The notes under the pieces are model-generated. The model searched no databases. It saw only the letters and a list, made by a program, of their open reading frames with translations, and had not been told where the DNA came from. Shown one piece after another: positions 8,886 through 41,170 of a DNA stretch of 64,000 bases. Position 1 is the first letter of the stretch; the number at the start of each line of letters is the position of its first letter. The translations under genes were made by a program, and so were the position numbers. This DNA comes from a virus, in the IMG/VR virus record IMGVR_UViG_3300028920_000001, positions 188,001-252,000 of that record. One strand, given 5' to 3'.

Positions 8886-8904
8886 CCGAAGATCTCGGTG
8901 CCTG

Positions 8905-12035: not shown

Positions 12036-12036
12036 A

Positions 12037-12444
12037 ATGGGAAGTTCTACCTATAGCGATATCGTTCCATTCGTAGCACCTTGCGTGTACGAATCTAACA
12101 ATCCTTACGAAGAAACACCAAGGATCGGATTTACCCGAGACATGGCCCTCCGTCTCTGTTGTCCTGAAGATGAAGAATGTGACAGCCCTTACAGTCATCA
12201 AGGATGGAAATACCAAAAAGATTCTGAGGAGATTGGTAAACGTCAACGTCTGATTGCAAGAGCTTGGGTCAAAGGCAAACATCGAGTGTGGATTATCAAT
12301 GAATCAGAGTACGCAGCCGGTGGTGATTATCAAATTTCACTTATCGCCAATGATTCAGACTCCATCACAGAATTTGCCAAAGATTGGGACATCGAACTCA
12401 AGCTCGGTATCGAGGAGAATGATACCGTTCAACAGACTCTGTAA
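12037..12444 (+). CDS. Unknown 135-aa acidic protein
   Basis: Starts 1 nt after the previous stop. Contains LCCPEDEEC, possibly a metal site, and an acidic C-terminal half (SITEFAKDWDIELKLGIEEN). No family recognised. Confidence 0.6.
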   Translation: MGSSTYSDIVPFVAPCVYESNNPYEETPRIGFTRDMALRLCCPEDEECDSPYSHQGWKYQKDSEEIGKRQRLIARAWVKGKHRVWIINESEYAAGGDYQISLIANDSDSITEFAKDWDIELKLGIEENDTVQQTL

Positions 12445-16420: not shown

Positions 16421-16457
16421 CCGATCTCGCGTACCTGAGATCGAGGTGACGCATAGT
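16421..16457 (+). promoter_or_regulatory. Hairpin leader of the DNA ligase gene
   Basis: CGATCTC (16422-16428) pairs perfectly with GAGATCG (16437-16443) around loop GCGTACCT. The 3' arm runs straight into the ribosome-binding site GAGGTGAC. Same layout as 17979, 29905, 32032 and 37104 but with different stem bases. Confidence 0.7.
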
Positions 16458-20501: not shown

Positions 20502-20708
20502 TCATGATTCCATTACCTCACGAATCTCGGCTTCCTTCAAGGGCAAAATCTCCATTAAATGCCGGTTCCTGACGCCGATGGTTTCAACAATGTCAATGGC
20601 TTCTTGATAGGAAAACTGATCAGCATTTTCCAACCTGCCTCCCTGGCCCCAATAAACAAATCCCAAAGCGCCTTTCCAACGGATCACATAATCGAGTCGG
20701 ACTACCAT
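20502..20708 (-). CDS. MKYVI-type protein, 68 aa, exact EVMES tail
   Basis: Last gene of the leftward block. LDYVIRWKGALGFVYWGQGG, RLENADQFSYQEAID, then LPLKEAEIREVMES. Starts 1 nt after the upstream stop. Confidence 0.75.
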   Translation of the reverse strand: MVVRLDYVIRWKGALGFVYWGQGGRLENADQFSYQEAIDIVETIGVRNRHLMEILPLKEAEIREVMES

Positions 20709-20924
20709 TTAAGATTCCATGATCAACCGGACTTCAAGCTCATCAGTAGAGATAATTCGAGCATAATTTGGCAATCCATAGGAACCACAATTCAAACTAA
20801 ATATTTGTTGGGCCATCTCCCGTTCTTTATAGATCTTAGCCTCAAATCGGGAACCAGACTCTCCGGTCCAATAGAAATGGCCGTAGCGAGGATTCTCCCA
20901 AGTGATTATAAATCCGGATTTCAT
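20709..20924 (-). CDS. MKYVI-type protein, 71 aa, exact LIMES tail
   Basis: Start at ATG 20924 (ATGA overlap) rather than 20948. MKSGFIITWENPRYGHFYWT, FEAKIYKEREMAQQ, then IISTDELEVRLIMES. The final Ser is TCT and the stop TAA. Confidence 0.75.
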   Translation of the reverse strand: MKSGFIITWENPRYGHFYWTGESGSRFEAKIYKEREMAQQIFSLNCGSYGLPNYARIISTDELEVRLIMES

Positions 20925-21346
20925 GAATCCATGATCTTGCCGACCCATTTGAGATTTCTTTGAGCTCGAGCCTCACGAAGATTTCGATAAATAACTATTG
21001 CCCAAATCAACACGGTGATGGCCAAGCAAGGGCGAATGAAACCGCCATTTGAATAATATGAATAGCCCCAAGCTGCTGTACCACCTAAAGCATTCCATAA
21101 TTGAAGATACAACCAAAACATAGGTCGCTTTGAGAACATCGTTAATAGACGATTTCGAAATAACTTGAGCCGATATCGAAACTTGGCCTCAGAAAAAGTG
21201 ATAACGCGAAGGAAAGAATAACCCTGACTGCAACGTAAGGCTTCAGCCCGGGAGTTATAGACCTTGGCTCCCAAAGGATCTGGAGTAAACCAGCCAGTGT
21301 CTGGACTATAATTATCGCCATTAACGTTGATGACCACCCACTTCAT
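20921..21346 (-). CDS. MKYVI-type head fused to a two-TM segment, tail KIMDS
   Basis: 141 aa. Residues 1-60 match the small family (MKWVVINVNGDNY, AKVYNSRAEALRC, RVITFSEAKFRYR). Instead of ending there it continues with two hydrophobic helices (FWLYLQLWNALGGTAAWGYS; CLAITVLIWAIVIYRN) and ends RNLKWVGKIMDS. A membrane-anchored version of the family. Confidence 0.75.
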   Translation of the reverse strand: MKWVVINVNGDNYSPDTGWFTPDPLGAKVYNSRAEALRCSQGYSFLRVITFSEAKFRYRLKLFRNRLLTMFSKRPMFWLYLQLWNALGGTAAWGYSYYSNGGFIRPCLAITVLIWAIVIYRNLREARAQRNLKWVGKIMDS

Positions 21347-21600
21347 AAATCCATGATCTCCATAACTTTAGCTTCGTTTAAGCTTACTACACGAATATTC
21401 TCAGCAAATTCAGGATACTCGCCTTGGACGATTTGAAGAACGATATCAGCTGCAGCTTTATATGGATAGCAGGTGGCCAATTTCATACTAGTCCATTCGT
21501 GGACCCGGCTCCAATAACTGAAAGTCTCGTCCTCGGGAAACAGGGGTTCGCAATAGATAATATAACCACATTTTTCTGGCCGATTGAGATCTACGGTCAC
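21343..21600 (-). CDS. MKYVI-type protein, 85 aa, tail EIMDL
   Basis: GTG start at 21600 overlapping the upstream stop (GTGA). CGYIIYCEPLFPEDETFSYW, ...YPYKAAADIV..., RVVSLNEAKVMEIMDL. Confidence 0.74.
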   Translation of the reverse strand: MTVDLNRPEKCGYIIYCEPLFPEDETFSYWSRVHEWTSMKLATCYPYKAAADIVLQIVQGEYPEFAENIRVVSLNEAKVMEIMDL

Positions 21601-21839
21601 GACTCCATTACTTCCAGAGCTAGAGCCTCACTGACAGTCATAATCTGCAGCTGATGTTGCAGATATTGCCAAATTTCCCTCTGAACCGCCTCTTCGGCAT
21701 ATTGCTTAGTATAAAATATAGTCGCATATTGAAGCGGATGCCAAATCGGATCGCCGCTAGGAATCTTAGATGCCCAACCCCAAAAACCGTGTCCGGGATT
21801 GCAAATTACATATTTATCGTCGCAAGGTTCGTTATTCAT
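21597..21839 (-). CDS. MKYVI-type protein, 80 aa, exact EVMES tail
   Basis: DDKYVICNPGHGFWGWASKI, LQYATIFYTKQYAEEAV, QIMTVSEALALEVMES. ATGA overlap upstream, GTGA downstream. Confidence 0.75.
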   Translation of the reverse strand: MNNEPCDDKYVICNPGHGFWGWASKIPSGDPIWHPLQYATIFYTKQYAEEAVQREIWQYLQHQLQIMTVSEALALEVMES

Positions 21840-22150
21840 GACTGCATCAGATAAATTACATGGGCCTCGTCTAAACTGCAGACCTGCCCATCGAGCCCAT
21901 GACGTTCAATGAAATTGAGAGCGGCCTGTTCAGAATCGAATAAAATTGCCTCTGGAAGCTTAACGTTCCAGCCATTTCCTAAATTATTGCTGCACCAGAA
22001 GAAATACGATCCCTTAAATATTAGATAGATGACAAAAATATATAAGGGAGGGTTTGCTGAACTATATTCTATATAATGGCCGTCTTCATCAACCAACAAA
22101 CGTTGGCCCGGGATTGGGATAGGAGGATTTAAATGAATGGATTTAGTCAT
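21836..22150 (-). CDS. MKYVI-type protein, 104 aa, tail YLMQS
   Basis: Pro-rich N-terminal extension (SIHLNPPIPIPGQRLL), then YIFVIYLIFKGSYFFW, KLPEAILFDSEQAALN, VCSLDEAHVIYLMQS. The start ATG 22150 lies inside the possible read-through part of the upstream gene. Confidence 0.74.
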   Translation of the reverse strand: MTKSIHLNPPIPIPGQRLLVDEDGHYIEYSSANPPLYIFVIYLIFKGSYFFWCSNNLGNGWNVKLPEAILFDSEQAALNFIERHGLDGQVCSLDEAHVIYLMQS

Positions 22151-22373
22151 TCATCACCGCCTTAACCTCAACCAATTAGGCTTCCTCAAGGGAAATGACT
22201 CTAAGAGAAGCCGCAGAATCGATCGAAAGAGATAAAAGTGCGGCCTTGGCTTCAGCGAAAGAAGGAAACTGTTGAGTATGTTCAAAATCGACCCATTCAT
22301 TCTCCTCGAAATCTCGATAAAATCCGTCGGAGAAAATGAAGGCACGCAGCGGGTTATAAATCAGATAGGTCAT
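22143..22373 (-). CDS. MKYVI-type protein with TAA inside the conserved tail
   Basis: MTYLIYNPLRAFIFSDGFYR, ...SFAEAKAALLS..., RVISLEEA, then TAA at 22176-22178. Reading on in frame gives LVEVKAVMND and a second TAA at 22143-22145, which overlaps the next gene's start. The part after the first stop still looks like the family tail. Annotated end includes it; the conventional product ends at 22176. Nonsense mutation or read-through; cannot tell. Confidence 0.6.
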
Positions 22374-22379
22374 GATTTA

Positions 22380-22646
22380 CTATGAGGTCATGATTTCGAT
22401 TATCCGGTCCACTGACCGGGCTTCTCCTAAATTGAGGATAAAAACTAAGCCAGGCGAGGCTTTGGTCCAATTCTTAATCCAGTCTTGATGGCAATCAAAA
22501 CAACGGCCGGAAATGAATCGGTGAGGGTAAAGGGAACTTGAAGGATGATGAGGAATGGGATAAACCCAAACGACGGCCGGAGCGGCACCGCAGATAAAAC
22601 AATCCTCTAAGAGGAAATTGGAAGGACGTTTCCCAAGCTCAGACAT
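22380..22646 (-). CDS. CxxC/CxxC zinc protein, 88 aa, tail EIMTS
   Basis: C16/C19 (CFICGAAPAVVW) and RFISGRCFDCHQDW (CxxCH) bracket a His/Pro-rich link (PIPHHPSSSLYPHRF). Nearly the same core is in 23916-24158. Ends SVDRIIEIMTS. Confidence 0.77.
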   Translation of the reverse strand: MSELGKRPSNFLLEDCFICGAAPAVVWVYPIPHHPSSSLYPHRFISGRCFDCHQDWIKNWTKASPGLVFILNLGEARSVDRIIEIMTS

Positions 22647-22647
22647 T

Positions 22648-22878
22648 TCATAAATCCATAATGTGTTGGACCTGGGCCAATTTCAGGGTTATAACTTTAA
22701 CGTCACCTAATTTATAAGTGTTGACAGTGCATAGGGCATCTGCCCGAGAAGTATAGATAAGGGCTTGGCTCAATTTACCCCACCCAGTTTCGTCAGGCCA
22801 ATTTTTACCGCCCCAATAAAAGAAGGCTCCAGGTCGGGTGACGGAAGAGGCAAGACAGGCTTGAATCACCCATTTCAT
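22648..22878 (-). CDS. MKYVI-type protein, 76 aa, tail HIMDL
   Basis: MKWVIQACLAS, GAFFYWGGKNWPDETGW, LSQALIYTSRADAL, VITLKLAQVQHIMDL. ATGA overlap with the upstream gene. Confidence 0.75.
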   Translation of the reverse strand: MKWVIQACLASSVTRPGAFFYWGGKNWPDETGWGKLSQALIYTSRADALCTVNTYKLGDVKVITLKLAQVQHIMDL

Positions 22879-23177
22879 GAGCTCATCACCTCAACCAACG
22901 CTAGAGCTTCGACAATATGGAGAAGATTAGATTCAGGAAAAGGTCCAGTCAATTCCTCTTGAATGGCAATTTGATAGGTGCCATCAAAATTGAGCTGGAT
23001 TGAGACACCGGTTGGTGCCATCTTACCCGATGAATTTGTACCCCAAAGACGCAAGGTGCACGGACCTATATTGACCAATTCCACCTTATATTTTCGTAAA
23101 TTAGGATTATGCTCTTCGGCAAACTTAATGGTCCGCTGTAGAAAAGATTCCTCTAATTTGGCCAATCCCCATTTCAT
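22875..23177 (-). CDS. Unknown 100-aa protein, tail EVMSS
   Basis: Starts like the family (MKWGLAKLEES) but the core differs: a beta domain with GPCTLRLWGTNSSGK and VSIQLNFDGTYQIAIQEE. Ends LLHIVEALALVEVMSS. The NFDGTYQI strand resembles LSLNGTCQMSFIE in 54494-54832. Confidence 0.72.
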   Translation of the reverse strand: MKWGLAKLEESFLQRTIKFAEEHNPNLRKYKVELVNIGPCTLRLWGTNSSGKMAPTGVSIQLNFDGTYQIAIQEELTGPFPESNLLHIVEALALVEVMSS

Positions 23178-23407
23178 GAATCCATCACCTCCAACACTTG
23201 GGCGTCTTGAAGGGTTATGACTTGGAGCTTATGGAGTTGATTTCCCTGAATGGTTTTAAGCACCACATTAGAATTCATTTCTGTTTGGGCTAAATCCAAG
23301 GTCTTGTAAGTATAAGCGAAATCCAAAGTCCCCCAAACAGGATAGGGTTCATCACCGCCCCAGAAATAGTCGCCGAAAGGCGGATTGTGGAGGTAAATGA
23401 CGTACAT
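23174..23407 (-). CDS. MKYVI-type protein, 77 aa, tail EVMDS
   Basis: MYVIYLHNPPFGDYFWGGDE, TLDFAYTYKTLDLAQ, QVITLQDAQVLEVMDS. ATGA overlap downstream. Confidence 0.75.
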   Translation of the reverse strand: MYVIYLHNPPFGDYFWGGDEPYPVWGTLDFAYTYKTLDLAQTEMNSNVVLKTIQGNQLHKLQVITLQDAQVLEVMDS

Positions 23408-23413
23408 AGGATT

Positions 23414-23629
23414 TCAGGATGTCATGATTTCTTGGACCAAAGCTTGATTCAGGGTGATGATGTAGCGGGTATAACAATCAAGATTTGGGGTGGACTCCCG
23501 ACCCTCTTCAGCAGCTTTCCTATCAGAATAAATAGTAGCCCGGTTGAGACGACTCCATTCTTCAGTATCTTGATTCCAATACCACCGGACGGATTGGTCA
23601 CTGGAAAAGGAGAAGATGACGTAGGACAT
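23414..23629 (-). CDS. MKYVI-type protein, 71 aa, tail EIMTS
   Basis: MSYVIFSFSSDQSVRWYWNQ, WSRLNRATIYSDRKAAE, YIITLNQALVQEIMTS. This is the clearest consensus member. First gene of the block 23629-20502. Confidence 0.75.
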   Translation of the reverse strand: MSYVIFSFSSDQSVRWYWNQDTEEWSRLNRATIYSDRKAAEEGRESTPNLDCYTRYIITLNQALVQEIMTS

Positions 23630-24647: not shown

Positions 24648-25124
24648 TCAGTTGGCGCTGAACAGGGCCGCCAACTCCGCCTTGGCGGGGTCCTTGGCGC
24701 ACTCTTCGGCTCGGAAGTGGGCCGCGAGCTGCCGGCCGTATCGGGCCGTGATGGTCCGGGCCTGCTCCAGCTCCTCTCCCTCGAGGGTGCCCTCTTCGGC
24801 AGCCTTCTTGGCGAGCTTGGTGCCCACGACCGCGTGGCTTGACATGAAGCCCTGCCGGTTGCGGGTCTCGGTGGAACCGTTGGACTGCTCGGAAGCCGTC
24901 TGCCGGTCGTACAGGATGCCCAAGCATCGCACGCAGAACTCGTCGTCGGACTCGACCTGTGCGACGATGTCCTTCTTGCTGCGGAAGGGGTACGGCTTGG
25001 GATTCTTGTTGACGCGCTTCTTGCGGGTCTTCTTCGGGGCGGTTGCGGTTTCGGCCTGCACGGGTGCTTCTGCGGCCTCTTCCGCCTGGACTTCGATCGT
25101 CTCTGCGGTGTTGGTGTTGCTCAT
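24648..25124 (-). CDS. GFMSSHAV-family protein 1, 158 aa
   Basis: Start ATG 25124 (AGGAGAATCCCAA upstream) preferred to 25157. Acidic Ala/Glu-rich N-terminus, a basic patch KKTRKKRVNKNPK, then the family core: DEFCVRCLGILYDRQT, RNRQGFMSSHAVVGTKLAKK, RYGRQLAAHFRAEE. Paralogues at 27962 and 35473 share LYRRQT...RGFMSSHAV-GS...YTKQLAAH-RAEQ. Function unknown; more divergent and longer than the other two. Confidence 0.75.
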   Translation of the reverse strand: MSNTNTAETIEVQAEEAAEAPVQAETATAPKKTRKKRVNKNPKPYPFRSKKDIVAQVESDDEFCVRCLGILYDRQTASEQSNGSTETRNRQGFMSSHAVVGTKLAKKAAEEGTLEGEELEQARTITARYGRQLAAHFRAEECAKDPAKAELAALFSAN

Positions 25125-27961: not shown

Positions 27962-28357
27962 TCACACGCCGAACTTGGCGCGGATTTGCTCCTGGGCCTC
28001 TTCGTCCAGGTGCATCTGCTGCTCTGCCCGGAAATGGGCTGCGAGCTGCTTGGTGTAGCGGCAAGGGATCTCCTCGGCCTTCCCTTCCTCCTCTTCCGTC
28101 AGCTCCTCGCCCGAGATCACCTTCTCGGCGATCTTGCTGCCCCACACTGCGTGCGAGGACATGAAGCCACGACGGTTCTTGTACTTGGTATCCTTCTCAT
28201 CCCGCTCGTCTTCCGTCTGACGCCGGTACAGGACGAGGATGCACTGCAGACGGAAGTCCGCATCCTCTTCCAGACGTGCCTTGACCTGCGCCTTGGTCAC
28301 GTACGGGTAGGAGTTGGTGGGGTTGGTGTTGATTGCAAAAGTCGGTTGGTTGCTCAT
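27962..28357 (-). CDS. GFMSSHAV-family protein 2, 131 aa
   Basis: Start ATG 28357 after GGAGGTAACGCAACC; the longer frame is not used. Core: VTKAQVKARLEEDADFRLQC, LVLYRRQTEDERDEKDTKYK, RRGFMSSHAVWGSKIAEKVI, RYTKQLAAHFRAEQ. Very close to protein 3 at 35473, including NPT-NSYPYVTK near the N-terminus. Alone on this strand, flanked by a terminator and a conserved RNA element. Function unknown. Confidence 0.78.
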   Translation of the reverse strand: MSNQPTFAINTNPTNSYPYVTKAQVKARLEEDADFRLQCILVLYRRQTEDERDEKDTKYKNRRGFMSSHAVWGSKIAEKVISGEELTEEEEGKAEEIPCRYTKQLAAHFRAEQQMHLDEEAQEQIRAKFGV

Positions 28358-28384
28358 GGTTGCGTTACCTCCAGTGTCCGATAC
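28358..28384 (-). promoter_or_regulatory. GTATC/GGAGG leader of GFMSSHAV-2
   Basis: On the minus strand: AACGTATCGGACACTGGAGGTAACGCAACC then ATG. Same leader type as on the plus strand elsewhere. Confidence 0.55.
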
Positions 28385-28489
28385 GTTGCGCAGCAGGAGA
28401 CTTCCGGCAGCGGAAATGAGCAGCAACCAAACGTAAACGCTGATGGGGAAGAGTAGCAGCAGCGCGAATTAACTGATTTTAAATACTTT

Positions 28490-28552
28490 TCCCCGAAGCG
28501 TTCCTACTTCGTCCGGGTTTATCACTCTGTGTGAAATTACCGTCCGCTTCAA
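28490..28552 (-). ncRNA. Conserved structured RNA element, copy 1 (riboswitch-like)
   Basis: 56-nt element closed by GAAGCG/CGCTTC, with an internal TCAC-ACAGA-GTGA hairpin and conserved single-stranded blocks GACGGT, CCGGACG and AGTAG. Copy 2 (35979-36040) has the same length, the same blocks and a CGGC-ACAAG-GCCG hairpin at the same place: three compensatory pair changes. It lies 138 nt upstream of GFMSSHAV-2. Strand is inferred from the gene. Confidence 0.65.
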
Positions 28553-28849
28553 TCAAGTGTACGCATCAACTTGATCAACTTGCGGATTTTATAGGTCTAT
28601 GCCTAAAGAAAACAAACATCTTGGACGGCAGGACACCGCTCCCTCCCGCAGGAACCGTCTGGTTCAGAAGCGTTTGGTTCGTCCTGCCGCCAGGCCCTTA
28701 CTGTCGCTCACTGCGCCCCGTCGGAACGGATTACGTGAACCGGGAACCCACAGACTGTTACGCGGCAATTGATCGCATTTCCGCCTGTCTTTTGAAGGTG
28801 ATCCCCTAAAGCCAAAGAAAATGCGCCCATTTCGCGCGTAAAAAGGAAC
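28553..28849. other. Gap before 28850 with two repeat copies
   Basis: CATCAACTTGATCAACTTG at about 28564-28582 holds two copies of the repeat clustered at 20285-20437. A 92-codon frame exists (28531-28809) but overlaps the RNA element and lacks a ribosome-binding site, so I do not call it. TTCGCGCGTAAAAAGGAAC precedes ATG 28850. Confidence 0.4.
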
Positions 28850-29056
28850 ATGCGAGTTTCTCAGTTGATCGACGCTTTGAGCAAGCTGGACCAAGACGCG
28901 TTCGTTCGAGTTTCGGTTGGATGGGCTGCAGACACGGCCATCAGCAGTCGGTACGACGATACGTTGACGGTAGTGGCCAAAGGAGACACCGTGGAGATCG
29001 GTGGTTGGCTTCCCAACTGTGGCACTGAGTTGGAAATCTACGAGGACGAAGAATAA
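28850..29056 (+). CDS. Small phage-type protein, 68 aa (MRVxxLIxxLxxLD family)
   Basis: MRVSQLIDALSKLDQDAFVR VSV is the start common to many short phage proteins (helix then strand). Ends with an acidic stretch LEIYEDEE. A paralogue is at 29687-29896. Its TAATG overlap couples the next gene. Confidence 0.7.
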   Translation: MRVSQLIDALSKLDQDAFVRVSVGWAADTAISSRYDDTLTVVAKGDTVEIGGWLPNCGTELEIYEDEE

Positions 29057-29280
29057 TGGCGGACAAAACCGAGGACGTCAGCGAAGAGATCCGTGTGTTC
29101 ATGGCCGAACGCCTGGCCCCGACTCAGATTTTGCTCGATTCTCTTCAAAAGCTGACCGAATACGACGACGTCGACTGGGATCAAGTCGAAGAAGAGGTGC
29201 TAGCTGCAGGGGACCGGCTAGCTGAAAGCTTGTTAGGCGAAATCAAAGACAAGCTGGAAGTGGACGAGGACGGCGAGTAA
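29056..29280 (+). CDS. Unknown 74-aa acidic helical protein
   Basis: Very acidic (DDVDWDQVEEEVLAAGD; KLEVDEDGE). TAATG overlap with the previous gene. No family recognised. Confidence 0.66.
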   Translation: MADKTEDVSEEIRVFMAERLAPTQILLDSLQKLTEYDDVDWDQVEEEVLAAGDRLAESLLGEIKDKLEVDEDGE

Positions 29281-29326
29281 ACAGGACTGAGGTCGCCGTT
29301 TCATTGCGGGTAAGCTCCTCAAAGAC

Positions 29327-29347
29327 GGGCCGGAGATCATCCGGCCC
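29327..29347. terminator. Hairpin followed by GTATC leader
   Basis: GGGCCGG (29327-29333) pairs with CCGGCCC (29341-29347), then GAGCCGTATCTCTCATC and ATG 29365. Confidence 0.55.
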
Positions 29348-29364
29348 GAGCCGTATCTCTCATC

Positions 29365-29652
29365 ATGGCCAATTCGATTGTTTGTTTCAGGCTCAGAAAA
29401 GGTGAAGCACCGGAGCTTGCTTCACCGACCATCTATCGAAATTGGAAGCGAGCCGTTCGAATCAACCTGGGCACCAAGGGCACCAAGGGACGTTTGGTCC
29501 TCGAAACCCAAAACAGCAAGGTCTTCGAGGCTGACGATTTGATTTGGGTTGGTGACGGATACGGCCCCTGTCATCTGGTTTTCTTGGATGTTGAGGCAGA
29601 CTTCCAAGAAACCTTGGCCTCTATTCGCAAACGAATACCGTCCGCAGATTGA
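29365..29652 (+). CDS. Unknown 95-aa protein
   Basis: Beta-rich (SIVCFRLRKGEAPEL; RAVRINLGTKGTKGRLVLET) with a helix at the end (FQETLASIRKRI). No family recognised. Confidence 0.65.
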   Translation: MANSIVCFRLRKGEAPELASPTIYRNWKRAVRINLGTKGTKGRLVLETQNSKVFEADDLIWVGDGYGPCHLVFLDVEADFQETLASIRKRIPSAD

Positions 29653-29686
29653 CGCACAGCACGCGTATCTTTGACTGGAGGCACAC
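29653..29686 (+). promoter_or_regulatory. GTATC/GGAGG leader
   Basis: GCACGCGTATCTTTGACTGGAGGCACAC then GTG 29687. Member of the repeated leader set; stem weak. Confidence 0.5.
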
Positions 29687-29896
29687 GTGAGAATTAAGGA
29701 CTTGCTCGCCCGGTTAGTGCACTATGATCCTGAAATGGAGGTTGTAGTGGTCAACGAAGAGACTGGCAGGCTGGAAGAGGCTTGCCTCGTCCAGGTTTGT
29801 AACACCAACCTTGTGCCAGACACGGGCGAAGAACAAGAAGGACCATTCCTAGTCATAAACTGGGTGCCAGACTGGGTGCCAGACGAAACTCGGTAA
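29687..29896 (+). CDS. Small phage-type protein, 69 aa (paralogue of 28850)
   Basis: GTG start. MRIKDLLARLVHYDPEMEVV aligns with MRVSQLIDALSKLDQDAFVR. Contains a tandem NWVPDWVPDE at the end. Acidic. Confidence 0.7.
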   Translation: MRIKDLLARLVHYDPEMEVVVVNEETGRLEEACLVQVCNTNLVPDTGEEQEGPFLVINWVPDWVPDETR

Positions 29897-29900
29897 ATCT

Positions 29901-29934
29901 CACGCTAGTCCGCGTATCCGGGACTGGAGGCAAC
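29901..29934 (+). promoter_or_regulatory. Hairpin leader (7-bp stem)
   Basis: CTAGTCC (29905-29911) pairs with GGACTGG (29921-29927; one T-G pair), loop GCGTATCCG, then AGGCAAC and ATG 29935. The 3' arm includes the first GG of GGAGG. Confidence 0.7.
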
Positions 29935-30237
29935 ATGCAGGCTCAGATTCATTCAGCAACATACTGCGACAAAGATGAAGCAGTGTGGTCTGGATACGAC
30001 CCGGATCACGCACACCATGTGTTGACCCCAGAAGGTAGCCTTCTCGTCGTCCGCAACGACGAGGACGGCCCTGTGGTCTTTGCCCTACCCGGGGCCACGA
30101 ACAAGCTTATGGCGGCCGTCGAGCAGTTCCTTTCCCCGGACCCGGCAACGGGAGACGTGAGCTACGACGAGTCTGCATTCGACAGCTCTGCCCACACGGC
30201 AGCCCAGTTGTTGGCGGATTACCTACAAAACAAGTAA
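29935..30237 (+). CDS. Unknown 100-aa protein
   Basis: MQAQIHSATYCDKDEAVWSG, then a strand-rich region (LLVVRNDEDGPVVFALPGAT) and an acidic helical end. No family recognised. Confidence 0.65.
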   Translation: MQAQIHSATYCDKDEAVWSGYDPDHAHHVLTPEGSLLVVRNDEDGPVVFALPGATNKLMAAVEQFLSPDPATGDVSYDESAFDSSAHTAAQLLADYLQNK

Positions 30238-30242
30238 GGAAA

Positions 30243-30281
30243 TCGCGCGTCAGCACGCGTATCCACGTCTGGAGGCAACAC
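30243..30281 (+). promoter_or_regulatory. GTATC/GGAGG leader
   Basis: CAGCACGCGTATCCACGTCTGGAGGCAACAC then GTG 30282. CAG/CTG can pair next to GGAGG. Confidence 0.5.
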
Positions 30282-30503
30282 GTGGATTTGACGATCATCA
30301 TCCTGTACGACGATGGGCTGTGTGAACACTACGTTGGTGCTTGGCCTGGCCCAATCCCTTCGGACGTAAGAAAAAGCCTGGCGAGGCAGTACCGGGCCGT
30401 CATTGACGGCGAACCTGGTTCTCACGAAGAGAATGCTCGTACCATCAGCTTCCGTGAAGTCCGGGCTGGTGCAGGTGATTTGGTCAACATCTGGAACTCG
30501 TAG
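30282..30503 (+). CDS. Unknown 73-aa protein
   Basis: GTG start. MDLTIIILYDDGLCEHYVG; ends EVRAGAGDLVNIWNS. Mixed alpha/beta, no family recognised. Confidence 0.62.
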   Translation: MDLTIIILYDDGLCEHYVGAWPGPIPSDVRKSLARQYRAVIDGEPGSHEENARTISFREVRAGAGDLVNIWNS

Positions 30504-30541
30504 ATTCTACGCAAGCACGTGTATCCGTGACTGGAGGTAAT
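30503..30541 (+). promoter_or_regulatory. GTATC/GGAGG leader
   Basis: CACG (30516-30519) pairs with CGTG (30526-30529) around TGTATC; CTGGAGGTAAT and GTG 30542 follow. Confidence 0.55.
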
Positions 30542-30817
30542 GTGGCGAAACCGAAATACGAAGCACTTCAAATCGACGACGCTTGCTGCGAACTCATCGC
30601 ACTCGACAAGGTAGTCCAAGTCGGATCCTGTCTCATCGGTATACTGGGAGGCAGAGCCGGTCAGTATACGCTCATTGGTCCAGCCGATGAGGTCAAGATG
30701 GTCAAGATGCTCTACGATGAGCACGAAAAGGAACTGAACGCACGGGAAGAGGATTACGACGAAGACGAGGGTGAATGGTTCGATTTGGTTCAAATCGCTC
30801 GTAAAGCGTTAGAGTAA
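30542..30817 (+). CDS. Unknown 91-aa acidic protein
   Basis: GTG 30542 is the start (GGAGG 6 nt upstream), not the earlier in-frame GTG at 30527, which lies inside the leader. AKPKYEALQIDDACCELIAL, ... EDYDEDEGEWFDLVQIARKA. No family recognised. Confidence 0.66.
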   Translation: MAKPKYEALQIDDACCELIALDKVVQVGSCLIGILGGRAGQYTLIGPADEVKMVKMLYDEHEKELNAREEDYDEDEGEWFDLVQIARKALE

Positions 30818-30819
30818 AT

Positions 30820-30855
30820 CACGCGCCAGTATACGTATCCGTGGGTGGAGGCGAC
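30820..30855 (+). promoter_or_regulatory. GTATC/GGAGG leader
   Basis: CGCCAGTATACGTATCCGTGGGTGGAGGCGAC then ATG 30856. CCA/TGG may pair across the loop. Confidence 0.5.
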
Positions 30856-31077
30856 ATGCGATACGTAAGAATCAACTGTAACGTGAGCCCGGCCCGATAC
30901 AGCGGAACCCTATATGCGGGCACTGTGGCCACAGTGCGCGTTGTGAAGAGGTGGCAGCTGAAGATCGAGCTGCATGATGGCAATTGCTACTGGTTATACA
31001 AAGACCAGGTGGACGAAATCACACAGCAGGAATACGCAGCACAGCATCCGGTGATGGAGGCAACACATGAAACCTGA
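30856..31077 (+). CDS. Unknown 73-aa SH3-like protein
   Basis: Start ATG 30856 (the frame from 30841 includes the leader). MRYVRINCNVSPARYSGTLY with TVATVRVVKRWQLKIEL looks like a small beta barrel. DEITQQEYAAQHPVMEAT resembles the I-x-EEY...VM-x arrangement of the shared tail, displaced from the end. Confidence 0.62.
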   Translation: MRYVRINCNVSPARYSGTLYAGTVATVRVVKRWQLKIELHDGNCYWLYKDQVDEITQQEYAAQHPVMEATHET

Positions 31078-31348
31078 GCAAGTTCGCGAAGCGATCGAAG
31101 CGGTCTACGAGGTCCGGGACTATTCGGGTCGTGCCATGTTCGGCAAGCAGTGTGTGGGCATCGAGGTAGATGACCCAACCAAGGCCATACTCGAAATCGT
31201 GGAGGAGTTCTACCGGTCCACGGACACGGAAGAAGAGCCAGGCGCACTTCCGGACTTGTGCTACGAACTGAAGAATCATCGGGTTGATATGATGGGTCTC
31301 GGCAGCATCCTCTACTGGCCCAGCATCCCGTGGGAAGCGGACGAGTAG
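31067..31348 (+). CDS. Unknown 93-aa protein
   Basis: ATG 31067 after GATGGAGGCAACAC, overlapping the previous gene by 11 nt. Helical start (KPEQVREAIEAVYEVRDYSG), acidic centre. No family recognised. Confidence 0.64.
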   Translation: MKPEQVREAIEAVYEVRDYSGRAMFGKQCVGIEVDDPTKAILEIVEEFYRSTDTEEEPGALPDLCYELKNHRVDMMGLGSILYWPSIPWEADE

Positions 31349-31349
31349 A

Positions 31350-31388
31350 TCTCGCGCCAGCACGCGTATCGGTGAGTGGAGGCAACAC
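31350..31388 (+). promoter_or_regulatory. GTATC/GGAGG leader
   Basis: CTCGCGCCAGCACGCGTATCGGTGAGTGGAGGCAACAC then ATG 31389, directly after the previous TAG. One of the closest matches to the leader consensus. Confidence 0.6.
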
Positions 31389-31802
31389 ATGGCGCAGATC
31401 ATCAGCAGGCGAGAGCACCACGAAGAGAAGGTCTACAACCTGGCCTTTCATTGGCGGGACGACCCGGGTGCCGGTTTTTCCTTCCCGTGTGACAAGGACG
31501 GGAACGTGGACGAAGACCACGTTCCCGAGAGCTATTACAAGTGCCTAAGCGGCGAATACGACGTCGTGGCTGATGGGGTAGTCTGCTACACCCATCGGTG
31601 GACGTCGCCAACCGTCATCAGGTGCACTTGTGGCGCAGAGGTGGAACTGTACGGATTCACGAACACCTGCCACGTATGTGAGGCCGACTACAACATGAGC
31701 GGCCAGAGGTTGGCTCCTCGATGCCAATGGGGTGAGGAAACCGGCGAGTCACTGTCGGACATCATGGCTGCGGACACCGACCCATGGGGAGGCGACTACT
31801 GA
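31389..31802 (+). CDS. Zinc-ribbon protein, 137 aa
   Basis: Zinc ligands C79, C81 (RCTCGAEVELYG) and C94, C97 (TNTCHVCEADYN). This GFTNTC...DYNMSGQ-LAPR-QWGEETGE layout is a type seen in many phage and bacterial hypotheticals. N-terminal half is beta-rich. Stop overlaps the next ATG (TGATG). Confidence 0.75.
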   Translation: MAQIISRREHHEEKVYNLAFHWRDDPGAGFSFPCDKDGNVDEDHVPESYYKCLSGEYDVVADGVVCYTHRWTSPTVIRCTCGAEVELYGFTNTCHVCEADYNMSGQRLAPRCQWGEETGESLSDIMAADTDPWGGDY

Positions 31803-32023
31803 TGGCGTGCTATCAGCGTGAACAAACCGGCAACTGCAACCACCATCAGTGTCAGTTCAGTTCGGATACTGATCACGGATACGAATGCGTGGAACTAGCT
31901 TCCGGTTTCTGTGAATGTGGTGAAGACTGCCTCGCCAAGTGTCCTCACTCTTGGCGAACTTCTGCTCGGGCAGAACAGGCAGACACAGCTTTTCGCAGGA
32001 AGTACCCAGAAATCAAATTGTAG
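31802..32023 (+). CDS. Cys-rich 73-aa protein
   Basis: Nine Cys plus several His: CYQREQTGNCNHHQCQF and GFCECGEDCLAKCPHSW. Likely binds one or two zinc ions. Start ATG 31802 is fixed by the TGATG overlap. Confidence 0.68.
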   Translation: MACYQREQTGNCNHHQCQFSSDTDHGYECVELASGFCECGEDCLAKCPHSWRTSARAEQADTAFRRKYPEIKL

Positions 32024-32061
32024 ATCTTGCGCCAATCCGCGTATCCGTGATTGGAGGCAAC
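32022..32061 (+). promoter_or_regulatory. Hairpin leader (perfect 6-bp stem)
   Basis: CCAATC (32032-32037) pairs with GATTGG (32049-32054) around CGCGTATCCGT, then AGGCAAC and ATG 32062. A textbook member of the family. Confidence 0.72.
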
Positions 32062-32271
32062 ATGAGCCACGTCACTCTGAATCAGGAAGAGGCTGAACAA
32101 GCCTCCAACTTCCTGTCTGCATACAGCGCTTACTTGGATAACCACGGATACAAACATGATCCGGATTGGAAGACCAAGATAGACCAAGCTGAAAAGCTGA
32201 TTGATATCCTGGAAGGACGACGACCCTGCGCTGAGTGTGGTTACTACCCTTGCTGTTGTGAGGCGACATGA
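32062..32271 (+). CDS. Unknown 69-aa protein with C-terminal Cys cluster
   Basis: Start set by the leader, so the long upstream frame is ignored. Helical body (NQEEAEQASNFLSAYSAYLD), then PCAECGYYPCCCEAT. ATGA overlap with the next gene. Confidence 0.68.
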   Translation: MSHVTLNQEEAEQASNFLSAYSAYLDNHGYKHDPDWKTKIDQAEKLIDILEGRRPCAECGYYPCCCEAT

Positions 32272-32519
32272 CGTACCAAGTCTTCTATACCAACCACGGA
32301 TACTACAGCTCAGAGCAACCGGTCAATTTCCAGGATGCCCTGACCGTGGCGCGTGCCAGCGGTTTCGAAGCCCGAATCGACAGAGACGGGCAGCCTATTG
32401 GTGCCTGGTCTCCCTTGTACGGCTACAGGTCACTGTTCTACGTCCGGTTCTTCGGGGAGCTACCCACCGAAGCCGAAATTGACGTGGCTTTCGAAGAACT
32501 GAGACAATTCGGCTGGTAG
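32268..32519 (+). CDS. Unknown 83-aa protein
   Basis: MTYQVFYTNHGYYSSEQPVN, then NFQDALTVARASGFEARID, similar in plan to the MKYVI family (strand, helix, strand) but without the tail. Ends FEELRQFGW. Confidence 0.66.
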   Translation: MTYQVFYTNHGYYSSEQPVNFQDALTVARASGFEARIDRDGQPIGAWSPLYGYRSLFYVRFFGELPTEAEIDVAFEELRQFGW

Positions 32520-32558
32520 ATTTCACGCTAGGCGTTGTATCCTTGACCGGAGGCGACG
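32520..32558 (+). promoter_or_regulatory. GTATC/GGAGG leader
   Basis: ATTTCACGCTAGGCGTTGTATCCTTGACCGGAGGCGACG then ATG 32559. Confidence 0.5.
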
Positions 32559-32711
32559 ATGGCACGGACCCAGAAGCAGACCAAACCCCGGAAGACCCGC
32601 AATATGATCGCCTTCGGGCTGATCGTCCAGGGTCGAAATCGGGTGATGCGTGACCGGCGTAAGCGCCGACCTGGCGATCGTACCGACAACTGGCGCAAGG
32701 AGCTGGACTGA
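32559..32711 (+). CDS. Small basic protein, 50 aa
   Basis: MARTQKQTKPRKTRNMIAFG and VMRDRRKRRPGDRTDNWRKE: about one third Lys/Arg. Looks like a small nucleic-acid binding protein. Its stop overlaps the next start (TGATG). Confidence 0.6.
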   Translation: MARTQKQTKPRKTRNMIAFGLIVQGRNRVMRDRRKRRPGDRTDNWRKELD

Positions 32712-32896
32712 TGCGAATCAAGCTTGGTGATCTTGTCAGAGTGGTTCAAGGAAGAAGGACGTGCAGCACTCACGAGCTGGCACGTTTGCTTCTGGAGCTA
32801 CCGGAGACCCCTATCCGAAAAGTGGAGCAGACCGTAGCTTGGTCCGGTCCTCTAGCAAAGGAAGAGGACGTCCAGATTGGCGTCCGAGCTTGGTAA
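32711..32896 (+). CDS. Unknown 61-aa protein
   Basis: MRIKLGDLVRVVQGRRTCST then a helix and ...EEDVQIGVRAW. The start resembles the MRIKDLL family. Overlaps the previous stop. Confidence 0.58.
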   Translation: MRIKLGDLVRVVQGRRTCSTHELARLLLELPETPIRKVEQTVAWSGPLAKEEDVQIGVRAW

Positions 32897-32941
32897 GTTC
32901 ATTCCGTCCAATCGTCGAAGGCATTTGGAAAGGACTAACCC

Positions 32942-33142
32942 GTGGGAGCAAAGCTGACGATTGAGCAAGACCGTCTTGGTTGGTGGTGTGCGTACGAGCA
33001 CAGCCCGATTCCAGGCCAAGGAAAACGCATCGTCGTTGCCCGTAAGGACCGGAAGGAAGCAGAACGCGATGCCCGGACGTTCCTCAAGAAGGAACGTGAT
33101 GGGTCTATCTTCAAAGCAGAGCGATCGGTGGTGGGCGCGTAG
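32942..33142 (+). CDS. Unknown 66-aa basic protein
   Basis: GTG 32942. MGAKLTIEQDRLGWWCAYEH, then VVARKDRKEAERDARTFLKK; strand-strand-helix. No family recognised. Confidence 0.6.
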   Translation: MGAKLTIEQDRLGWWCAYEHSPIPGQGKRIVVARKDRKEAERDARTFLKKERDGSIFKAERSVVGA

Positions 33143-33175
33143 ATCGCCAGTCATCTGGCGTAAAGGCGAACATGA
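33136..33175 (+). repeat. 40-nt leader repeat, copy 1
   Basis: Identical to 33459-33498. Contains the stop TAG, CGCCAG-TCAT-CTGGCG (33145-33160), then TAAAGGCGAAC and ATG 33172. A hairpin leader variant using AAGGCG rather than GGAGG. Confidence 0.7.
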
Positions 33176-33465
33176 CACTGCATGAACAACTTAAGACCCT
33201 GAATGATGATTTCGGGGTTGTCACTCACACCCGTGACAAGGATGAATTCAGCAGTGGGGAATTGTGGGACAACCTCGTATATACCTGCTTGCAAAGGCAG
33301 AGGCATGAACAAGTGCATCTTTCCTTTGTGATTAGGTATGATGCGTTGGGTGTTGTTGCCTATGACACCGTAGTCACGACCAAAATGATCACTCAGGAGC
33401 AAGCTCGTCAGTACCTTGACTTACTGAATCAAGTCACTGAAAAGGAAGAACAAGAAGACGCGTAG
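33172..33465 (+). CDS. Unknown 97-aa protein
   Basis: MTLHEQLKTLNDDFGVVTHT, beta strands (VHLSFVIRYDALGVVAYDTV), then a helix ending EKEEQEDA. No family recognised. Confidence 0.65.
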   Translation: MTLHEQLKTLNDDFGVVTHTRDKDEFSSGELWDNLVYTCLQRQRHEQVHLSFVIRYDALGVVAYDTVVTTKMITQEQARQYLDLLNQVTEKEEQEDA

Positions 33466-33498
33466 ATCGCCAGTCATCTGGCGTAAAGGCGAACATGA
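33459..33498 (+). repeat. 40-nt leader repeat, copy 2
   Basis: Exact copy of 33136-33175 with hairpin CGCCAG/CTGGCG at 33468-33483; ATG 33495 follows. Identity stops at the first codons of each gene. Confidence 0.7.
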
Positions 33499-33944
33499 GG
33501 CAGGCATTGATCACGGCAAGTCAGCAGAAGCCACTTCCGCCTTGGGTGCGGGATGTGGCAGATGCCGCCAGGGCTGGCGGAACTCTTGTTCCGGAATCCA
33601 CCTGGACCTGGCTTGGTGCCTGGCTGGCCACCCTAGCGGAAACCGAGCTGGACCTAGAGGATTGTCTCCCTCAGATCCTGTCGGCCGAATTCATCTATCT
33701 CCAGAACCACGCTAGATCCCAGGACCACCGAGAGTGGATCGAGGACCAGCTTCACCGAATCCAGGACGAAAACCCGGGCCAAACTGTTTGGTTCATTCCG
33801 GTTGACGAGCTGCTCTGCCTCCATCTGCAGGATGAGTACGGCAGTGACGGAATCCAGCTGGAGCGACTGGTGTTCGTGGGGACCGAACCCGAGCTACTTG
33901 CGGCCATTCATCAATTGACGCACGTCGACCTGCCGGTGCCGTAA
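33495..33944 (+). CDS. Unknown 149-aa protein
   Basis: Alpha-rich, with a Trp cluster (STWTWLGAWLATLAETELDL) and HREWIEDQLHRIQDENPGQ. No family recognised, no tail. Confidence 0.66.
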   Translation: MRQALITASQQKPLPPWVRDVADAARAGGTLVPESTWTWLGAWLATLAETELDLEDCLPQILSAEFIYLQNHARSQDHREWIEDQLHRIQDENPGQTVWFIPVDELLCLHLQDEYGSDGIQLERLVFVGTEPELLAAIHQLTHVDLPVP

Positions 33945-33959
33945 ACACAAGAGGAAAGC

Positions 33960-34211
33960 ATGGCTGAAGCTGTTCGTCACCCGTACGATTTATGGGATGT
34001 CCTCAAAGGCCGAGTCATCGTGGCGGCAGATGAATGCAAAAGTCTGTTCGTCACCTGGAACCGGTCAGACACCTTTCAGGTCTTCTACGTAGATAAAGGA
34101 TTCGAGGACGTAACGTACCGCGAATGTCAAATTGCAACCGGATTCGACGTCCCAAGAAACGATCTCGAAGCGGCAATCCACGTCGCCGAGCAGCTTCTAC
34201 GAGAAAGCTAG
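33960..34211 (+). CDS. Unknown 83-aa protein
   Basis: ATG 33960 after GAGGAAAGC. MAEAVRHPYDLWDVLKGRVI, then strands (FQVFYVDKGFEDVTYRE) and the helix ...HVAEQLLRES. Ends in -ES like the tail but lacks IM. Confidence 0.64.
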   Translation: MAEAVRHPYDLWDVLKGRVIVAADECKSLFVTWNRSDTFQVFYVDKGFEDVTYRECQIATGFDVPRNDLEAAIHVAEQLLRES

Positions 34212-34309
34212 GCAGGTGTGATTGGTGCGGAGGCCGAATCGTTGAGGGTGACGAGGTTCACCCCGGTTATCGAGGCTGGCCCTGTTGCGAAGACTGTAAG
34301 GCGGTGTGA
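34124..34309 (+). CDS. Small zinc protein; start uncertain
   Basis: The C-terminal 33 residues, GRCDWCGGRIVEGDEVHPGY and CCEDCKAV, form a convincing CxxC...CxxC zinc module. The first ~28 residues from ATG 34124 are Arg-rich and overlap the previous gene, so the true start may be a non-ATG codon near 34190-34210. GTGA overlap with the next gene. Confidence 0.5.
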   Translation: MSNCNRIRRPKKRSRSGNPRRRAASTRKLGRCDWCGGRIVEGDEVHPGYRGWPCCEDCKAV

Positions 34310-34551
34310 TGGCTGTCGAGTACTTGATCGGTGAGGTTCCAGGAAGCGTGGAGGAACGGGTGGCGTTGGTAGACAGCGTTACCAGCGTCTGTGTGCCGGT
34401 TCACACCTTCAGAAGCCCGGAAGCGGCCGAGGATTTTCTCACGTACGTACGTGAAAACCAAGCTGGTGTTGACGTACGCCAGCTCAACCAACGGACCCTC
34501 AGCGGTTTGTGGAACAATTGGTGGGAAGAACGCGGCAAATCCCTGGCATAG
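34306..34551 (+). CDS. Unknown 81-aa protein
   Basis: GTG 34306 or ATG 34309. AVEYLIGEVPGSVEERVALV then FRSPEAAEDFLTYVREN: the strand-helix plan of the MKYVI family, with SPEAAEDF like the SREEAE segment; no tail. Confidence 0.64.
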   Translation: MMAVEYLIGEVPGSVEERVALVDSVTSVCVPVHTFRSPEAAEDFLTYVRENQAGVDVRQLNQRTLSGLWNNWWEERGKSLA

Positions 34552-34587
34552 GGTTTAAAGAAATATATACCATATATTGCTGCCATC

Positions 34588-34665
34588 ATGGCCTCTGATG
34601 CGGTCTTGACCGCAATCATTTTGGTAGGAAGTTGGTACCGACTCTCGCGTAAGCCAGCTGCCTAG
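34588..34665 (+). CDS. Possible 25-aa membrane peptide
   Basis: MASDAVLTAIILVGSWYRLS then RKPAA. One short hydrophobic helix. No ribosome-binding site; AATATATACCATATATTG just upstream resembles the AT-rich promoter-like motif. Confidence 0.25.
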   Translation: MASDAVLTAIILVGSWYRLSRKPAA

Positions 34666-34681
34666 TCGCGTATCCAACAAC

Positions 34682-34855
34682 ATGACGAGGCTACTCATAG
34701 CTCTGTTAGTGGCAGTTGGGCTTTACATCTTGCTGTTCATCTTCTTACCCATCACCCAGGAAACGGCCGTCGTCATCCCCCTACTCGGCAAGTTCGAGTG
34801 GTCCTTTGGTGGGCTAGGGTGTACGGGCATTTTCGCGATCATTATGGGGAAGTGA
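34682..34855 (+). CDS. Small membrane protein, 57 aa, two TM helices
   Basis: MTRLLIALLVAVGLYILLFI (TM1) and GGLGCTGIFAIIMGK (TM2). CGCGTATCCAACAAC precedes the ATG: the GTATC part of the leader without GGAGG. Could be a spanin or holin-type accessory by size only. Confidence 0.6.
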   Translation: MTRLLIALLVAVGLYILLFIFLPITQETAVVIPLLGKFEWSFGGLGCTGIFAIIMGK

Positions 34856-34890
34856 GCGTAAATTTTAGGGTGGGGATCGTAGAAAAACCT

Positions 34891-35283
34891 ATGCTAAGAT
34901 TCGCTGCGATATATATCCTAACCATCGTTGTCAGTCTCCCATTGATGATTGCGGGAGGAGTGTGGGCAGCGCAAGCATACTTAGAACATAAGCAAGAAAT
35001 ATCTACCCAGGAGCCAGCTCCATTACCTGTCCTAGTTCTTCCTAAGACTACTACAGTCTCGGCTCCCTCGGCTCAGCCAACTGCCTCTGCAAAGCCGGCT
35101 CGAGAGAAACCTAAGCTCCACCCGACCAAGCCACGTTTTATCCGTAAAGCTCCCAAGCGGAAGCACGGACCGTGCTTTTACGGGGCGAATGGTCAATGCT
35201 ATCCGATAGACGCCTACTCAAACTGGCGTGCAACACCAGTGATGCGTCCAGACGGCACCTATCCGGAGCCCGGCGAATACTGA
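34891..35283 (+). CDS. Membrane-anchored Pro/Ala/Lys-rich protein, 130 aa
   Basis: TM helix at residues 4-27 (FAAIYILTIVVSLPLMIAGG), then a Pro-rich linker (PAPLPVLVLPKTTTVSAPSA) and a basic stretch (KPKLHPTKPRFIRKAPKRK), with GPCFYGANGQCYP near the end, possibly a disulfide loop. GTG 34852, overlapping the previous stop, is an alternative start. Resembles periplasm-exposed phage proteins in plan. Confidence 0.62.
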   Translation: MLRFAAIYILTIVVSLPLMIAGGVWAAQAYLEHKQEISTQEPAPLPVLVLPKTTTVSAPSAQPTASAKPAREKPKLHPTKPRFIRKAPKRKHGPCFYGANGQCYPIDAYSNWRATPVMRPDGTYPEPGEY

Positions 35284-35422
35284 GATAGTCGTCCTCCTAC
35301 GGGCGTGCCACGGGTTGGTTACCGCTGGCCGGCCAAGGCACCAATATGCTGTGGTCTTGGACACCGCTGCACATATGATACTGTAGTGATAGCGGACGGC
35401 TATCCCACTTGAGTGTACGCTT

Positions 35423-35452
35423 GAGCCCGGCCAACTTCCGTCAGCCGGGCTC
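35423..35452. terminator. Bidirectional terminator between convergent genes
   Basis: GAGCCCGGC (35423-35431) pairs with GCCGGGCTC (35444-35452). Located 20 nt past the stop of the leftward gene and 140 nt past the rightward one. The rest of 35284-35422 shows no gene. Confidence 0.65.
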
Positions 35453-35472
35453 TGTGGGTTGGGTTGTCGGGA

Positions 35473-35874
35473 TCAGACCCCGAACTTCTCGTGAATCTGG
35501 GCGGCAGCTTCGTCGTCCAAGCAGGCCGTCTGCTCTGCTCGGTAGTGGGCCGTCAACTGCTTGCTGTACTTGCAGACGATCCCTTCGATCTTGCCGGACT
35601 CTTCCTCGGTCAGCTCCTCACCTGCGATCACCTTCTCGGCCAGCCGGCTGCCGTTCACGGCATGGCTGCTCATGAAGCCACGCTTGTTCTTCCACTTGGT
35701 GTCTTTGGTCTCCCGCTCGTCCTCGGTCTGCCGGCGATACAGGACCAGCAGGCACTGCAGGCGGAAGTCTGCGTCGTCGGCCAGCCGTTCGGCGACCTGC
35801 TTCTTGGTGACGTAGGGGTAGCTGTTGTTGGCTGCGGGGTTGATCGCGAAAGTCGGAATCTTGGTGTCGGTCAT
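35473..35874 (-). CDS. GFMSSHAV-family protein 3, 133 aa
   Basis: ATG 35874 after GGAGGCAACGACA. Core: VTKKQVAERLADDADFRLQC, LVLYRRQTEDERETKDTKWK, KRGFMSSHAVNGSRLAEKVI, KYSKQLTAHYRAEQ. Close paralogue of protein 2, sharing ETKDTK-KN-RGFMSSHAV. Alone on its strand. Confidence 0.78.
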   Translation of the reverse strand: MTDTKIPTFAINPAANNSYPYVTKKQVAERLADDADFRLQCLLVLYRRQTEDERETKDTKWKNKRGFMSSHAVNGSRLAEKVIAGEELTEEESGKIEGIVCKYSKQLTAHYRAEQTACLDDEAAAQIHEKFGV

Positions 35875-35898
35875 TGTCGTTGCCTCCAGCCAAGGATA
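35875..35898 (-). promoter_or_regulatory. GTATC/GGAGG leader of GFMSSHAV-3
   Basis: On the minus strand: CTCCGTATCCTTGGCTGGAGGCAACGACA then ATG 35874. Confidence 0.55.
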
Positions 35899-35978
35899 CG
35901 GAGTTCGACCCGAGACCTACGCAGGGAATCTGTCGCGAAGCGTGAATCGGCCGGCTGGTCCGGATTTCGGACAGATCT

Positions 35979-36040
35979 CCCCGAAGCGTGTCTACTCCGT
36001 CCGGATTTACGGCCTTGTGCCGGGTCACCGTCCGCTTCAA
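35979..36040 (-). ncRNA. Conserved structured RNA element, copy 2 (riboswitch-like)
   Basis: GAAGCG/CGCTTC closing stem (35983-36038), internal CGGC-ACAAG-GCCG hairpin, conserved GACGGT, CCGGACG and AGTAG. Same 56-nt length as copy 1 with base changes that keep pairing. A second small hairpin, GTCCG-AAATC-CGGAC, follows downstream on the minus strand. Lies 109 nt before GFMSSHAV-3. Confidence 0.65.
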
Positions 36041-36075
36041 AGATAAGTACGTAAAGATAAGGAAGATCTGCACCG

Positions 36076-40603: not shown

Positions 40604-41170
40604 GTGATTTTATTTTATCGACCCCAGGACCCGCACGGTCATTATTCTAATTTTTCGAGTCATCCCGTCCATTTCATAGGCCAGGATTGGGATACTAGTG
40701 AACATGCCTTTCAGGCCATGAAATATTGGCCCCATCGGCCTGACCTGGTCAAAGCGGTTCATGACGCTAAAACTCCTGGGAAGGCTGCCATGATTGGTCG
40801 AGACCGTTCTTTACCGTTGCGACCTGATTGGGATTTGTCTCCAAACAATGATGTGCGAGTTCGCATTCCGGATCTGTTGAATATTGGACCAGTGTGGATG
40901 GATGATGGACGCGGGGTTTCACCCCCACCTCAGCCCATCTTTGCCAAAACCAAAGATGTGTTTATGTATGAGGTCGTTTGGCATAAATTCCATCAACATG
41001 CGAATCTCAAGCAAGCTCTGCTGGACACTGGAGAACAGCCTTTAATTGAGGACGCCGTTGGCGATCCTTATTGGGGTTGGGGTTGTTCCCGAGTTGGGCA
41101 AAACATGCTAGGGAGGATTTTGATGTTGGCTCGGCGTTCATTCCGAGTTGGAGGCTATATTCCGGCATGA
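40604..41170 (+). CDS. NADAR-family hydrolase (YbiA-like), 188 aa
   Basis: GTG 40604. Motifs: GHYSNFSSHPVHFIGQDWDT, SEHAFQAMKYW, KTPGKAAMIGRD, MYEVVWHKFHQHANLKQALL, DPYWGWG and GQNMLGRILMLARR, in the order and spacing of the NADAR fold. Members cleave N-glycosidic bonds; some remove ADP-ribose from guanine in DNA and act as antitoxins to DarT toxins. So this may counter host ADP-ribosylation defence or serve NAD metabolism. Confidence 0.88.
   Translation: MILFYRPQDPHGHYSNFSSHPVHFIGQDWDTSEHAFQAMKYWPHRPDLVKAVHDAKTPGKAAMIGRDRSLPLRPDWDLSPNNDVRVRIPDLLNIGPVWMDDGRGVSPPPQPIFAKTKDVFMYEVVWHKFHQHANLKQALLDTGEQPLIEDAVGDPYWGWGCSRVGQNMLGRILMLARRSFRVGGYIPA

Follow-up and report, generated by a model that had tools for sequence, protein, structure and literature searches.

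The 64,000-nucleotide stretch of viral DNA analyzed here (the window) belongs to a viral record of 426,960 bp (G000) and carries two copies of a short element, E1 and E2, together with three paralogous GFMSSHAV genes. The features under study, all on the minus strand, are:

24648..25124 (-): third GFMSSHAV paralogue, with no element nearby
27962..28357 (-): GFMSSHAV gene 1, 131 aa, phrog_21015
28380..28406 (-): predicted own promoter of GFMSSHAV gene 1, CGGAAGTC-N13-CGTATC, rank 11 among all window positions
28445..28494 (-): 3' hairpin P4 of E1, GGGGAAAAGTA / TACTCTTCCCC with one mismatch, abutting P1; p 0.005 against shuffles
28495..28550 (-): element copy E1, with P1 GAAGCG/CGCTTC, GA, P2 CGG/CCG, P3 TCAC(ACAGA)GTGA and core GACGAAGTAG
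28558..28584 (-): predicted E1 promoter, CGCAAGTT-N13-CGTACA, 7 nt ahead of GAAGCG
35473..35874 (-): GFMSSHAV gene 2, 133 aa, 72% identity to gene 1
35895..35921 (-): predicted own promoter of GFMSSHAV gene 2, CGTAGGTC-N13-CGTATC, rank 14 in the window
35924..35982 (-): 3' hairpin P4 of E2, GGGAGATCTGTC / GACAGATTCCC with one bulge; p 0.045 against shuffles
35983..36038 (-): element copy E2, with P1, P2 and core as in E1 and P3 CGGC(ACAAG)GCCG
36046..36072 (-): predicted E2 promoter, TGCAGATC-N13-CGTACT, 7 nt ahead of GAAGCG, with one mismatch in the -35 box

Most genes around the elements are small and have no known function. The GFMSSHAV protein is predicted to be helical (AlphaFold model, pLDDT 84), and a comparison of this model with the PDB returned no match. 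Protein domains recognized in the window include a partial DNA ligase with a SWIM-like segment, an X-family polymerase, NADAR and HAD_SAK_2, a set that fits a jumbo phage. The ligase gene (16458-17570, +) encodes a weak SWIM-like segment together with no more than the C-terminal portion of an ATP-dependent DNA ligase and its OB domain, and the NADAR-domain protein (40604-41170, +; 1.6e-25) is possibly involved in NAD+/ADP-ribose metabolism in defence or counter-defence, a guess made from the domain name. A row of small genes of about 65-140 aa with similar starts (MKWV.., Y/F-W-G motifs) at 20502-23629 (-) is probably a tandem paralogue array. The window also contains a Group I intron (6739-6996, +; 65 bits, Rfam) close upstream of a tRNA-Lys at 7172, and a tRNA called as Ile(tat) (8791-8887, +) in which an insertion of ~20 nt after the anticodon arm forms a long variable arm, unusual for this isotype.

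E1 and E2 are present as described in an earlier note on this DNA: both measure 56 nt from stem to stem, they have the closing stem GAAGCG/CGCTTC in common, and the change from TCAC/GTGA in E1 to CGGC/GCCG in E2 replaces three base pairs on both sides. The right half of the element, CCGGACGNAGTAGNNNCGCTTCGGGG, occurs exactly twice in the window at up to three mismatches, where shuffles predict zero occurrences. Single-sequence folding of E1 and E2 only slightly beats shuffled sequences (z about -1.1 to -1.3) and, because neither copy on its own folds with unusual stability, the case for an RNA fold is a comparative one.

Relatives were sought by scanning IMG/VR with patterns derived from E1 and E2 and removing chance matches; most pattern matches in viral contigs were of this kind, many of them inside coding sequence. 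A covariance model built on three copies recovers all copies of a family of eight, with E-values of 1e-19 to 1e-6 per genome. The family is distributed over five IMG/VR records, so that the homologue search proposed in the earlier note yielded six further copies, with covariation, in four other records:

G001, 286 kb, locus L008: two copies, A with promoter GTTGAATC-13-GTGTTC-7-GAAGCG and B with promoter GTTGATTC-13-GTGTTT-7-GAAGCG
G002, 393 kb, loci L010/L068: one copy, with promoter CGAAAGTC-13-CGTATC-7-GAAGCG
G003, 17 kb, locus L084: two copies
G007, 274 kb, locus L107: one copy, reached via the GFMSSHAV protein, with promoter CGGAGGTT-13-CGTACC-7-GAAGCG

The eight copies do not amount to eight independent events, because E1 and E2 on the one hand and copies A and B of G001 on the other each sit within a single phage; in G001 the second, diverged copy is inverted and lies 100 bp from the first. 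The model found nothing convincing in G004, G005, G006, G008, G009 and G010, nor in seven named genomes and 349 genomes of one phylum (15-150 candidates scored per genome). Bacterial and archaeal genomes gave 14 pattern matches, every one without the closing stem, and a 3-mismatch pattern applied to samples of three further phyla gave scattered matches similar in number to those of a reversed control, as judged by eye. A blastn search of INPHARED and PLSDB returned chance pieces only, and P0001 is absent from INPHARED. Within their sensitivity, these searches revealed no convincing copy in bacterial genomes, INPHARED phages or plasmids. In agreement with the earlier note, which had recognized no known class, Rfam 15 contains no family that matches the element at the curated threshold or even at E<=10. 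The glutamine (glnA / downstream-peptide) riboswitches of Rfam have a GACGGAAGUAGG-like strand in common with the element; kinship with them is not supported, as the order of the stems differs and there is no Rfam match at E<=10.

Aligned by hand, all copies follow the layout GAAGCG-GA-CGG-[3-5 nt]-P3 stem-[loop of 5, or 3]-P3'-[2-5 nt] in the 5' part and CCG-GACG(G/A)AG(T/A)AG-NNN-CGCTTC-GGGGA in the 3' part, with the invariant core GCGGAYGG...CCNGACG(G/A)AG. P3 is paired in all eight copies although its sequence differs; the four inner, loop-proximal pairs all covary, with two to four pair types each, and the combined p against shuffles is 2.6e-5. Copy A of G001 has a longer P3 with a bulge, and an ungapped script search places this stem differently. 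The first pair of P2 is C-G in seven copies and U-A in one, a compensatory change. The blocks GACGGT and CCGGACG are identical in E1 and E2, as had been noted, but they are not simply single-stranded, CGG and CCG pairing as P2, and the ACA of the loop, described as kept, is not conserved across the family. Compensatory changes in P2 and P3 across the eight copies show, at the level of sequence comparison, that the element is a selected RNA fold, and its recurrence with covariation in other viral genomes bears out this part of the original claim.

The outer stem is a different matter. P1 is indeed identical in E1 and E2; apart from the second G003 copy, in which two of six pairs are lost, it is invariant throughout the family and for that reason has no support from covariation; as it also competes with a downstream helix, P1 is a putative closing helix. 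A helix starting with GGGG (P4) lies beyond P1 and beats shuffles at a combined p of 1e-6. Both G001 copies, E1, E2 and one of the G003 copies support it with differing sequences; in G007 it is present and not significant against shuffles, and G002 and the remaining G003 copy show it weakly or not at all. Folding of longer sequences retains P2-P3 in most cases and usually prefers to pair C5-G6 with C40-G41 across tandem G.A, with the 3' strand of P1 joining the downstream helix. P1 and this extended downstream helix exclude each other in folding, their predicted energies differing by 2-12 kcal/mol in seven sequences, and both alternatives rely on invariant bases.

In E1, E2, G002 and G007, that is at four copies in three phages, a predicted bipartite phage promoter, CGNARRTY-N13-CGTAY, stands in identical register, and the element begins 13 nt past the first C of CGTAY. 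If up to one mismatch in the -35 box is allowed, sites of this kind stand ahead of no more than 0.03-0.11% of positions in the sequences concerned (3e-4 to 1.1e-3), and four out of four in register is therefore not chance. G001 has a different promoter with equal geometry at both copies, so that at six of eight copies the element lies immediately downstream of a promoter in register; neither G003 copy has a recognizable promoter in register. Among predicted genes of the window and G002, CGTATC and CGTACC are strongly enriched 20-30 nt upstream of start codons (CGTATC before window genes: 13 observed versus 3.0 expected), with the second box CGNARRTY 13 nt upstream of the CGTAYC-type box. Ranked by a weight matrix that was trained on gene starts, the source of ranks 11 and 14 for the two GFMSSHAV gene promoters, and to which the element promoters were new, the E1 promoter is 47th in the window and the G002 element promoter 21st in the 20-kb L068. 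After exact promoter copies, at 10 sites in the window and at another 10 in G002, the first Shine-Dalgarno-like motif starts at the element's own 13-nt distance, and this usual position 13 nt past the first C of CGTAY implies very short 5' UTRs. In G001, three gene starts have similar promoter sites with an ATG about 13 nt on, which suggests leaderless mRNAs in places. From the promoter spacing and the analogy to bacterial promoters, we predict that transcripts of the element start on the first G of GAAGCG or beside it.

CGNARRTY-N13-CGTAYC precedes many genes of the window, e.g. at 16430+, 17988+, 28385- and 35900-; it is also found in G002 and, at GFMSSHAV genes, apparently in G005 (L104) and G007. 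The G001 promoter, TTGAATCC-...-GTGTTC, is seen in L008 at 152, 2445, 5510 and 5892 (+) and at 5733 (-). A further motif common to the region upstream of E1 and G002, TTCAAAAGACA, was discarded, its frequency in the window being at or below chance. L068 also contains a tRNA-like acceptor stem and T arm (GGGGTTCGAATCCCC) with an odd interior at 12017-12135 (-), where neither Rfam nor ARAGORN calls a tRNA.

The neighborhoods of the element differ between phages. In the window's own genome each element lies 100-200 nt upstream of a GFMSSHAV gene that has its own strong promoter in between; at E2 the -35 box of the gene 2 promoter starts three bases past the P4 arm. In G002 the element follows the stop codon of a GFMSSHAV gene by 55 nt, the gene that comes next is encoded by the other strand and the nearest following + strand gene is ~3.3 kb away, so that the element has no sense gene following it. 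The G007 element has the end of one gene immediately ahead of it and, apparently, the end of a convergent gene behind it, a layout read by eye because gene calling is unreliable in this GC-rich locus. The G001 elements are downstream of a tyrosine recombinase gene. Altogether, four of the eight copies, in three phages with genomes of 270-430 kb and two or three GFMSSHAV genes each, have such a gene no farther than about 1 kb away. This adjacency exceeds chance; the two also occur apart, as five records with GFMSSHAV show no element and the G001 record, which may be a fragment, has no detectable GFMSSHAV gene.

The earlier note proposed a riboswitch or protein-binding leader. In such a model P1-P2-P3 would sense a signal and the P4-extended helix would take the 3' strand of P1 and thereby switch the downstream gene, and the position of E1 and E2 upstream of GFMSSHAV genes and the helices predicted to exclude each other are in line with it. 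Both genes in question, however, have promoters of their own downstream of the element; transcripts from these are predicted to exclude it, and only read-through from the element promoter could join the two. Moreover, in G002 the element comes 3' of the GFMSSHAV gene and no sense gene follows, the G007 element is apparently followed by a convergent gene, and inspection by eye revealed no U-run terminators. The competing GCGT in E2 overlaps the -35 box of the gene promoter and may therefore be there for another reason. The leader reading is weakened by these data, and we consider it improbable. The same association with GFMSSHAV could reflect a complex of the RNA with the GFMSSHAV protein, or one mobile module inserted together with its own promoters. 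The proximity in three phages argues for this possibility; the RNA without a detectable gene in G001, the five GFMSSHAV records without an element and the lack of a PDB match for the protein model argue against it and make it rather unlikely. A type III toxin-antitoxin RNA was also considered and rejected, tandem RNA repeats upstream of a toxin being absent and each locus having a single unit.

Alternatively, the nascent RNA might act in cis on RNA polymerase as HK022 put does, altering pausing or termination as it emerges. The element would be at the extreme 5' end of the predicted transcript under two unrelated promoters and comprises two adjacent helical domains, much as putL, of ~70 nt and with two stem-loops, lies just downstream of its promoter (PMC9378689). 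Yet a long operon on which antitermination could act is lacking: in G000 and G002 the units are short and give way to genes of the opposite orientation, which leaves this mode of action quite improbable. The element could also be a site working at the level of DNA in recombination, replication or packaging, its hairpin acting as single-stranded DNA; in favor of this, the G001 pair forms an inverted repeat downstream of a tyrosine recombinase gene. A gene of this kind was noted at none of the other loci, and the exact promoter register at six copies would be unexpected for a DNA site, so that this reading is most improbable.

Taken together, we consider a new family of small non-coding phage RNAs likely, each transcribed from its own predicted promoter and having the element as its conserved 5' domain. 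In this model, transcription from the adjoining promoter would start at the first base of GAAGCG or next to it, and the 5' domain, followed in most copies by P4, would give an RNA of roughly 105-190 nt. Given that in two phages no sense gene follows, the RNA would act in trans. With less confidence, our best guess is that the invariant core binds a conserved protein; the candidate binding site would comprise probably two tandem G.A pairs between C-G/G-C pairs and the unpaired AGUAG strand. Since no GFMSSHAV gene is detectable in G001, which does have the RNA, a host factor would be a more likely partner than GFMSSHAV. To our knowledge, almost no jumbo-phage non-coding RNAs have been identified by comparative evidence.

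Very few phage non-coding RNAs are known at all (21 cited; PMC8545117). By description, the family resembles HK022 put (PMC9378689) in being a phage RNA directly after a promoter with two adjacent stem-loops, whereas put acts in cis on early operons and the units here are short and isolated, sometimes with nothing in sense downstream. A ~100-nt non-coding RNA of phiKZ, found by Grad-seq, is similar by description in its length, its two stems and its location in jumbo-phage intergenic space; it was attributed to 3'-UTR processing and has no start site of its own (PMC8545117), whereas the family described here has its own predicted promoter. Racrs and solitary repeat units are RNA anti-CRISPRs that mimic host CRISPR repeats (PMC10651486); our family is set apart from them by description, the core being constant here while the hairpin sequence drifts.

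A constant core in phages with different promoters implies a shared and specific partner. Tentatively, these RNAs may constitute a new class of RNA effectors in unrelated jumbo phages that capture or inhibit conserved host machinery, be it a polymerase, nuclease, ribosome or immune complex. The covariance model and the promoter consensus make the RNA directly searchable and testable.
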